DNA from: a virus
Reading direction: 5' to 3' (one strand)
Length of the DNA: 20,845 nucleotides
Virus record (IMG/VR): IMGVR_UViG_3300021364_001004
Location: 1 to 20,845 of that record
The translations under genes were made by a program, and so were the position numbers. The first letter of the stretch is position 1. Each line of letters begins with the position of its first letter. Below the pieces are notes generated by a model, which saw nothing but the letters and a program-made list of their open reading frames with translations, was not told where the DNA came from and searched no databases. Positions 3,522 to 18,655 of this stretch are shown here, piece after piece.

Positions 3522-3702
3522 TCAATTCAAGTTCGGAGGACTTGACAAAACCCCAGTCAATGTCTTAAGATTGTTGAGTGAACTTGAGGGATCATACCAA
3601 CTCCTCAAGTATATGGGTTTCCAAGAAGACATGGAAACTCTTGACAAAATAAAGAAGAAGTATTATACTATATACTTCAAACTTAAAAAGGGCACTGGGT
3701 AG
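3508..3702 (+). CDS. Small hypothetical protein (64 aa) ending inside tRNA-Tyr
   Basis: Start ATG at 3508 (MRTSDQFKFGGLDKTP), inside the 3' end of the previous gene. It is a basic, helical protein with LRLLSELEGSYQLLKYMG in the middle and a Lys/Tyr-rich end (KKKYYTIYFKLKKGTG). The longer frame opening at 3478 would overlap its neighbour by 44 nt and is less likely. The last Gly codon and the TAG stop (3697-3702) are also the first six bases of the tRNA-Tyr acceptor stem. A sigma70-like promoter for the tRNAs lies within this gene at 3641-3669. Function unknown. Confidence 0.65.
   Translation: MRTSDQFKFGGLDKTPVNVLRLLSELEGSYQLLKYMGFQEDMETLDKIKKKYYTIYFKLKKGTG
3641..3669 (+). promoter_or_regulatory. 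Sigma70-like promoter for the tRNA cluster
   Basis: TTGACA (3641-3646), 17 nt spacer, TATACT (3664-3669), inside the end of a coding gene and 27 nt before tRNA-Tyr. It could give the tRNAs their own transcription start near 3676. Confidence 0.6.
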
Positions 3703-3860: not shown

Positions 3861-3932
3861 GCCCCCGTAGCTCAGTGGTAGAGCAGGGCTTTTGTAAAGC
3901 TCAGGTCGCAAGTTCAAATCTTGTCAGGGGCT
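3861..3932 (+). tRNA. tRNA-Thr (anticodon TGT)
   Basis: Acceptor stem GCCCCCG/CAGGGGC with one C-A mismatch, anticodon stem GGGCT/AGCTC with loop TTTGTAA, T-arm GCAAG/CTTGT. It lies 4 nt after tRNA-Arg. It is directly followed by the structured segment 3933-4058. Confidence 0.93.
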
Positions 3933-4058
3933 TAGCGGGATGGCGACACCCGTGCTCACATCTCCGAGAGAAAAAAGAATCGGAAAACCAACCCATGTGA
4001 GAGAGGAGTGGGATCCTCCTTGGTGCCCCCTCTGCTGACGAGTAGAGGGTATTCTCCA
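3933..4058 (+). ncRNA. Candidate structured stable RNA inside the tRNA cluster
   Basis: No open frame of note, but several stems can be drawn. CGGG/CCCG (3936-3952). CTCACAT/ATGTGAG (3955-3961 with 3995-4001), enclosing CCGA/TCGG (3964-3983). AGGAG/CTCCT (4004-4020). A 9-bp stem CCCTCTGCT/AGTAGAGGG closed by a GACG loop (4028-4049), with one G-U pair. It is GC-richer than nearby genes and lies between tRNA-Thr and tRNA-Asn. T4 encodes two small stable RNAs of unknown role (C and D) in its tRNA cluster, so a similar RNA is plausible. Not recognised as a known family. Confidence 0.5.
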
Positions 4059-4080
4059 TTCGCTATTTGCAAATAGCGAA
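4059..4080 (+). repeat. Perfect 22-bp palindrome before tRNA-Asn
   Basis: TTCGCTATTTG followed at once by its exact reverse complement, ending 5 nt before tRNA-Asn. As RNA it would form a hairpin with a few unpaired bases at the tip. It could be a processing or pausing signal, or a dimer protein site. There is no T-tract, so it is not a standard terminator. Confidence 0.8.
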
Positions 4081-4085
4081 CATAT

Positions 4086-4157
4086 TCCCAAGTAGCTCAG
4101 CGGCAGAGCCGCCGACTGTTAATCGGCTGGTCGCAGGTTCAAATCCTGCCTTGGGAG
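4086..4157 (+). tRNA. tRNA-Asn (anticodon GTT)
   Basis: Acceptor stem TCCCAAG/CTTGGGA, anticodon stem CCGA/TCGG with loop CTGTTAA, T-arm GCAGG/CCTGC, discriminator G. It is flanked on both sides by perfect inverted repeats (4059-4080 and 4158-4176). Confidence 0.96.
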
Positions 4158-4176
4158 TTGCTAGATAGTCTAGCAA
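4158..4176 (+). repeat. Inverted repeat directly after tRNA-Asn
   Basis: TTGCTAGA, loop TAG, TCTAGCAA: a perfect 8-bp stem beginning at the base after the tRNA discriminator. There is no following T-tract. It could be a 3'-end processing signal for the tRNA transcript. Confidence 0.7.
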
Positions 4177-9119: not shown

Positions 9120-9354
9120 CGATCAGTCCCGAGATGACTCAAAACTCGCTCTGGTCGGGATGGGTTTAACGACCCCTCGGAGTTTCCAATTTCTCTAAAA
9201 AATTGGTGGTGCGGATGGAGCTATACTCCCGCCTGGTTTCTAAGTTCCAGTTAAAAATTTAGTGGTGGATCCAAAAGACCCCTTCCGTGTGGTTGTTTTC
9301 CTGTTTAGCAACTGAAATAATAAAACAGGTGGCGAGCCTGAGCACCCAAACATT
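9120..9354 (+). ncRNA. Candidate structured RNA or leader with repeated hairpins (235 nt gap)
   Basis: No credible frame. Several stems can be drawn. CCCGA/TCGGG (9128-9132 with 9155-9159), with CGAG/CTCG nested. CCAATTT/AAATTGG (9186-9206). GCG+GGAG/CTCC+CGC (9211-9232). CTAAGTT/AATTTAG with one G-U pair (9240-9262). CCTGTTT/AAACAGG (9300-9329). The three AT-rich hairpins are each followed directly by TGG, and the first two repeat units are alignable. It could be a free RNA or a long structured leader for the oxygenase gene at 9355. No promoter found. Confidence 0.45.
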
Positions 9355-18494: not shown

Positions 18495-18655
18495 ATCAAC
18501 ACGTTAAGGAACGTAACGTTTCTTGAACCGTTGTAACACCCCAAACCGAGACCTATAGGGTGTATAAATCACGTCTCTCATATCCTGTCTAAGGGTGACA
18601 GGAAATAGTAACTCCACCATTTCCCTGATGGTCTTACTTTTTTAGTTCAAAACAA
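18495..18655 (+). promoter_or_regulatory. Structured psbA leader (PhotoRC-like), with H-type pseudoknot
   Basis: A long untranslated leader. ACACCC (18536-18541) pairs with GGGTGT (18558-18563), while GAGAC (18548-18552) in its loop pairs with GTCTC (18573-18577). This is the layout of an H-type pseudoknot. A hairpin CCTGTC/GACAGG follows at 18584-18602. Published comparative work describes PhotoRC-I and PhotoRC-II RNA motifs upstream of psbA, the second including cyanophages; this leader is a natural candidate. There is no Shine-Dalgarno before the psbA ATG, so translation control by this RNA is plausible. The exact family match was not tested. Confidence 0.65.

Follow-up and report, generated by a model that had tools for sequence, protein, structure and literature searches.

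A family of structured small RNAs encoded in the tRNA arrays of T4-type Synechococcus phages

It has long been known that the tRNA clusters of phages include small stable RNAs with no assigned job; phage T4, for example, has RNAs C and D (species 1 and 2 RNA). Both are encoded in the tRNA cluster of this T4-type myovirus, rnaC being 139 nt long and rnaD, of 119 nt, starting 1 nt after tRNA-Arg. Two further kinds of phage RNA are associated with tRNA genes: GOLLD and ROOL, which are ornate phage-encoded RNAs without assigned function, are often found near tRNA islands (PMC12286853), and the theta ribozymes, which are of the hepatitis delta virus (HDV)-like type, are located directly at the 3' ends of phage tRNAs (PMC10879173). 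Here, we analyse a structured element located between tRNA-Thr and tRNA-Asn in a 20.8-kb virus record from IMG/VR (this whole stretch of DNA is hereafter called the window), whose top matches are T4-type Synechococcus phages; in organisation, its closest analogue is the pair of T4 RNAs C and D. We propose, with a probability of roughly 0.78, that window positions 3933 to about 4050 encode a non-coding RNA of about 120 nt from an undescribed cyanomyovirus family, which would be released by tRNA processing and would act in trans by binding a partner.

In the window, the consecutive genes for tRNA-Tyr, -Arg and -Thr are followed by a gap of 152 nt (3933-4084) and then by tRNA-Asn, as called by ARAGORN. 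The element lies on the plus strand, as do its two neighbours: tRNA-Thr(tgt) at 3861-3932, whose 3' maturation would create the 5' end of the RNA (a spacing kept in 127 copies, described below), and tRNA-Asn(gtt) at 4085-4158, where RNase P would release the 3' side of the RNA by maturing the 5' end of the tRNA. The proposed small RNA gene spans 3933-4058, and the covariance model R1, which has the window sequence itself among the rows used to build it, matches positions 3930-4026 with 112.4 bits (E 4.8e-23). The 5' end of the RNA is predicted at 3933 +/-2. Its 3' end has two candidate positions, one behind the terminal hairpin P5 (about 4050), the other the site before 4085 at which RNase P would cut. 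The element is not coding, since the P1 loop and the P3/P2 junction differ in length between copies by one to a few nucleotides, out of frame. Folding energy by itself is only moderately unusual (-44.5 kcal/mol and z -2.35 for the 126 nt up to a downstream palindrome, equalled by 3 of 200 shuffles; -53.7 kcal/mol and z -3.68 for the full 152-nt gap, with none of 200 shuffles as good), and it is the comparative evidence that decides. The single-sequence minimum-energy fold even puts helix P4 in the wrong place, the correct P4 coming from covariation.

Comparison of the copies supports four helices, P1 to P4. When 98 distinct copies were aligned to the covariance model, a procedure that favours the proposed structure, 99.3% of the P1-P4 cells were paired (94.2% in shuffles) and 129 cells were compensated, versus 23.4 in shuffles (0 of 500 shuffles reaching the observed number), with two-sided compensatory changes at 13 pairs; sliding the register lowered pairing to 24-52% (maximum 52.4%). 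A MAFFT alignment of 66 distinct copies, which is not fitted to structure, has 97.8% of cells pairing and 85 compensated cells versus 20.3 in shuffles. Additionally, in a scan of all pairs of columns the proposed pairs make up most of the strongest signals.

The P1 hairpin (3935-3953, with 3935-3939 paired to 3949-3953) has UGG in its loop and two-sided changes at four of its five pairs, ACGGA/UCCGU being replaced by ACGGG/CCCGU, UGGGA/UCCCG and others. The P2 stem (3955-4001, with 3955-3961 paired to 3995-4001) encloses P3, is 99.9% paired and has two-sided changes at three of seven pairs (CUCACAU/AUGUGAG becoming CUCGCGU/ACGCGAG or CUCACGA/UCGUGAG); at its flank, 3954/4002 (columns 31/82), the all-pairs scan found G.A changed to A-U in four copies. 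The P3 hairpin (3963-3984, with 3963-3967 paired to 3980-3984) presents an all-purine 12-nt loop, GAGAAAAAAGAA, at 3968-3979. When one P3 pair was scanned for two-sided changes none turned up, and P3 covariation came from an unbiased scan: UCCGA/UCGGA changes to UCCAG/CUGGA, with two compensated pairs, only in copies retrieved by a pattern lying outside P3. At the base of P3, the all-pairs scan found C.A replaced by U.G in 8 sequences, C.A and U.G wobble pairs being isosteric. In the P4 hairpin (4003-4021, with 4003-4008 paired to 4016-4021; loop UGGGAUC in the window), two-sided changes occur at four of six pairs: the inner pairs of GAGAGG/CCUCUU vary (GGUA/UACC, GGGA/UCCC, GAAG/CUUC), and the UGGGANC loop is nearly fixed. 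A 3-bp pseudoknot between CCC at 3992-3994, in the P3/P2 junction, and GGG at 4010-4012, in the P4 loop, is plausible as a model, 99.3% of its cells pairing.

The terminal hairpin P5 (4028-4049, 9 bp, loop GACG) covaries at all nine pairs. The GACG-loop type is the commonest (28 distinct stems, with 1 of 252 cells unpaired), and P5 as a whole is exchangeable: unrelated hairpins take its place in other phages, and S-H34 has none. Two loci (L049 and L111) lack P5 together with some of the 3' strand of P4 and are possibly decayed elements. A first-pass annotation of this DNA had proposed a structured non-coding segment between tRNA-Thr and tRNA-Asn, and this is borne out by the covariation and by a 5' end that is fixed by a tRNA or a promoter; the two stems in which it had proposed to look for compensatory changes, 3955-4001 and 4028-4049, are both strongly supported by them, the second being the 9-bp stem with a 4-nt loop that it had singled out. 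Three other readings of the fold were discarded. The order P3-P7-P8 of a group I intron, with ACCAA/UUGGU as P7, is not kept as pairing (AACAA occurs with UUGAU, and UCGA in S-CREM2); a hammerhead reading of CUGACGA in P5 lacks a visible GAAA partner, and other P5 types do not keep the loop; and the P4 bases that would mimic an anti-Shine-Dalgarno sequence change freely as pairs.

The same 5' end is reached in two different ways. In 127 of the 154 copies with sufficient upstream sequence, P2 begins 21-27 nt past the 3' end of a tRNA, and P1 about 1-7 nt past it; none of these 127 copies exceeds a promoter score of 8/12. Among the other 27, which have no detected adjacent tRNA, 25 score 9-12 for a sigma-70-type promoter, with TTGACN-like and TATAAT-like hexamers 17 nt apart and a -10 box 29-31 nt before P2, a position that places +1 at the start of P1; they include several unrelated-looking upstream contexts. 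The remaining two (L021 and L161) have a tRNA 3' half directly upstream, uncalled by ARAGORN in the given stretch. Since it would otherwise be hard to explain why two independent mechanisms give the same 5' end, the arrangement implies that the product would be a discrete, trans-acting small RNA, either excised by tRNA maturation or transcribed alone. The window RNA itself is probably transcribed from a sigma-70-type promoter of the tRNA/RNA unit at 3641-3669 (plus strand; TTGACA-17-TATACT, 11/12 consensus matches), a site to be read as a consensus match only, because the region holds 5 promoter-like sites versus 2.4 in shuffles.

These 5' ends also bear on the idea that the element is a self-cleaving ribozyme that matures the 3' end of the adjacent tRNA, as the HDV-like theta ribozymes of gut phages do. 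Most copies start within a few nucleotides of a tRNA 3' end, which is the position described for theta ribozymes (PMC10879173) and fits the 127 tRNA-adjacent copies, and the element is compact and possibly pseudoknotted. Nevertheless, in the 25 promoter-driven copies +1 falls at that same place, so that nothing upstream would be left to cleave; the supported helices are local (P1, P2/P3, P4), the 5' strand pairing within the P1 hairpin instead of in the nested double pseudoknot of HDV, and no HDV or other ribozyme model of Rfam matches. We consider this explanation highly improbable. If the element merely spaced or matured the tRNA transcript, as a cis-acting spacer, attenuator or processing signal, this would account for its location, which is almost always in or close to a tRNA array, and for the U-rich tail that often follows P5. 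However, the conserved unpaired positions (the A-rich loop GAGANNAAAGAA, CAACCC and UGGGANC) exceed what a spacer needs, most tRNA junctions of the same arrays lack the element, and the promoter-driven copies follow no tRNA, making a cis-acting role improbable as well. Nor does the element have the position of a cis-regulatory leader or riboswitch, in the 5' untranslated region of a protein gene with a conserved gene downstream: what comes next is usually a tRNA, of one species or another.

The family is specific to phages. Using blastn, the element was found in 17 GenBank records, corresponding to 10 distinct Synechococcus myophages from at least five named Kyanoviridae genera (Bellamy, S-CAM3, S-SCSM1, S-SCSM2R, S-8S53, S-H34, S-CREM2, Sf-CH11/CH1a, Sf-CH1b and Sf-FR1), and two divergent members used as queries returned the identical 17 records with no further convincing one. 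The copies in Bellamy, S-CAM3 and S-SCSM1 are flanked by tRNAs, and those in Sf-FR1 and S-CREM2 are of the promoter-driven kind. After two pattern scans of IMG/VR, the family counts at least 162 copies in at least 162 loci, one per contig, with at least about 150 IMG/VR contigs carrying the element, which is single-copy in each carrier genome. Six tRNA species are found upstream of the copies (Asn, Thr, Ala, Gly, Arg and Leu), a tRNA of one of several species usually follows 25-50 nt past P4, and the flanking tRNAs form 13 different pairs. A host origin was rejected: the model, which recovers 10 of 10 phage records, found no copy in 390 cyanobacterial genomes, and of 13 hits in a collection of genome contigs 12 were judged chance, showing little beyond the P3 hairpin or an unrelated longer hairpin (two Lachnospiraceae loci, about 27 bits). 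The only match there with the full core lies on a contig binned as Flavobacteriaceae, which is probably a mis-binned cyanophage.

The first-pass annotation had recognised no known RNA family in the segment, and the database searches agree: the gap had no Rfam match in a whole-window search up to E 5, and the segment alone had none on the plus strand even at E<=10, its only two hits being sub-threshold, on the minus strand and regarded as chance. Neither ARAGORN nor Rfam finds a tRNA or transfer-messenger RNA in the element. It is annotated in none of the 17 GenBank records, and the S-SCSM1 and S-CREM2 genome papers, in which Rfam was searched, report other non-coding RNAs and not this one. The family appears to be previously uncatalogued, an earlier description elsewhere being possible given the partial coverage of the literature. 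Genome papers that rely on Rfam overlook such RNAs, those on S-SCSM1 and S-CREM2 being examples.

As regards T4, the suggestion of a cyanophage counterpart of RNAs C and D stands for the layout and fails for homology. Like rnaD, the cyanophage element, which is about 120 nt long, sits among the tRNA genes of a T4-type myovirus and abuts a tRNA; unlike the T4 RNAs, it belongs to phages of a different host phylum, can have its own promoter and occupies many different slots. Run without filters on the T4 locus, R1 gives 5.1 bits (E 1.4) in the rnaC region and nothing below E 10 for rnaD, its best match there (9.8 bits) overlapping tRNA-Ser, and on the whole T4 record it finds no match. The T4 rnaC sequence (L132:1409-1547, minus strand) ends in a tRNA-like T-arm, GGGTTCGAATCCC, and matches the model of tRNA-Sec weakly, its 17.5 bits being less than the gathering score. 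GOLLD and ROOL likewise tend to occur near tRNA islands and differ in being several hundred nucleotides long, as against about 120, and the element matches no Rfam model. The wcaG, PhotoRC-II, manA and glnA RNAs are structured RNAs typical of the same phages, yet they lie in the 5' untranslated regions of protein genes, whereas the element lies in tRNA arrays and is matched by none of their models. The window holds a wcaG and a PhotoRC-II cis-regulatory RNA, at 9178-9276 and 18525-18616, above the Rfam gathering scores.

In the mechanism that we propose, the RNA would be transcribed together with the phage tRNAs, a tRNA 3'-end nuclease would make its 5' end, and its 3' side would be set either by RNase P or by P5 acting as a weak terminator; in phages where it follows no tRNA, its own sigma-70-type promoter would start transcription at the same place. 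The mature RNA would have four conserved helices, which the CCC/GGG contact probably closes, and a protective hairpin at its 3' end; the all-purine A-rich loop would be exposed. The conserved unpaired bases and the restriction of the family to phages suggest that it most likely acts in trans, presumably as a stable RNA, and we infer that it would do so by binding a protein or a ribonucleoprotein in infected cells. Several points weigh against this proposal. The element is carried by just 10 distinct phages among many cyanomyovirus records and is therefore dispensable for the group as a whole; the CCC/GGG contact is nearly invariant and never swapped, which is compatible with pairing and provides no covariation support; and the analysis found no molecular partner, ten phage genomes giving no consistent complement of the A-rich loop.

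That last result also bears on the alternative of a base-pairing regulatory RNA, in which the purine loop would target host or phage mRNAs. In its favour, the loop is exposed, and its high conservation extends to copies retrieved with a pattern that did not cover it; on the other hand, several of the ten genomes hold no complement on the plus strand, and the loop tolerates some substitutions and one-base length changes, leaving base pairing an unlikely role. A decoy that blocks a host defence nuclease or an RNA-binding toxin would be a special case of a protein-binding RNA. RNAs and tRNAs by which phages counter RNA-based defence are known from other cases, and the distribution among arrays is patchy and mobile-looking, but no RNA antitoxin family nor abiF is matched in Rfam, and we regard a decoy as rather doubtful. 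The ribozyme and the mere spacer are less likely than either of these. More tentatively, the element may represent a new class of trans-acting phage RNAs that move as a cassette among tRNA genes, borrow tRNA maturation to obtain their own ends and disable or retune a specific host machine (the ribosome, an RNA-decay complex or a defence nuclease). The job of tRNA-cluster RNAs becomes testable here, in a family that has well over 100 members, a fold supported by covariation, and isolated pairs of phage and host.

Downstream of the RNA, at 4059-4080 (plus strand), lies the 22-bp palindrome already noted in the first pass, which is indeed perfect and is a separate spacer module, not part of the RNA. 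In syn9, S-RIM50 and their relatives (40 phage records), it is found in the spacer between tRNA-Ala and tRNA-Asn; the other copies of the element that were compared downstream of P4 showed no such palindrome between P5 and the tRNA that follows. Furthermore, the tail of the window P5, UAUUCUCCA, resembles the 3' end of the tRNA-Ala that flanks this spacer in phages of the syn9/S-RIM50 type, a likeness suggesting that recombination within the array may have put the RNA in the place of tRNA-Ala. In S-RIM50, the same tRNA slot holds a different RNA, rejected as a relative, in which the best R1 score is 5.3 bits. This S-RIM50 segment belongs to a second, unrelated structured RNA candidate found in similar tRNA slots, with a GUCCANA-type hairpin loop followed by GGGGUUCGGCUCUACCCC-N-AACAAAAGGGCCGCC, directly before a tRNA. 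This candidate occurs at L146:220-336 (S-RIM50), L181 at about 490-563, L182:334-437, L183, L184 and L186-L190; it likely forms an H-type pseudoknot, with a fold z of -3.1 and no convincing Rfam match. The array of S-SZBM1 (L182:530-690) additionally holds a tRNA-like CTCTGG...CAGAG segment that is not annotated as a tRNA, and the same is seen in DSL-LC03 (L181:420-490).
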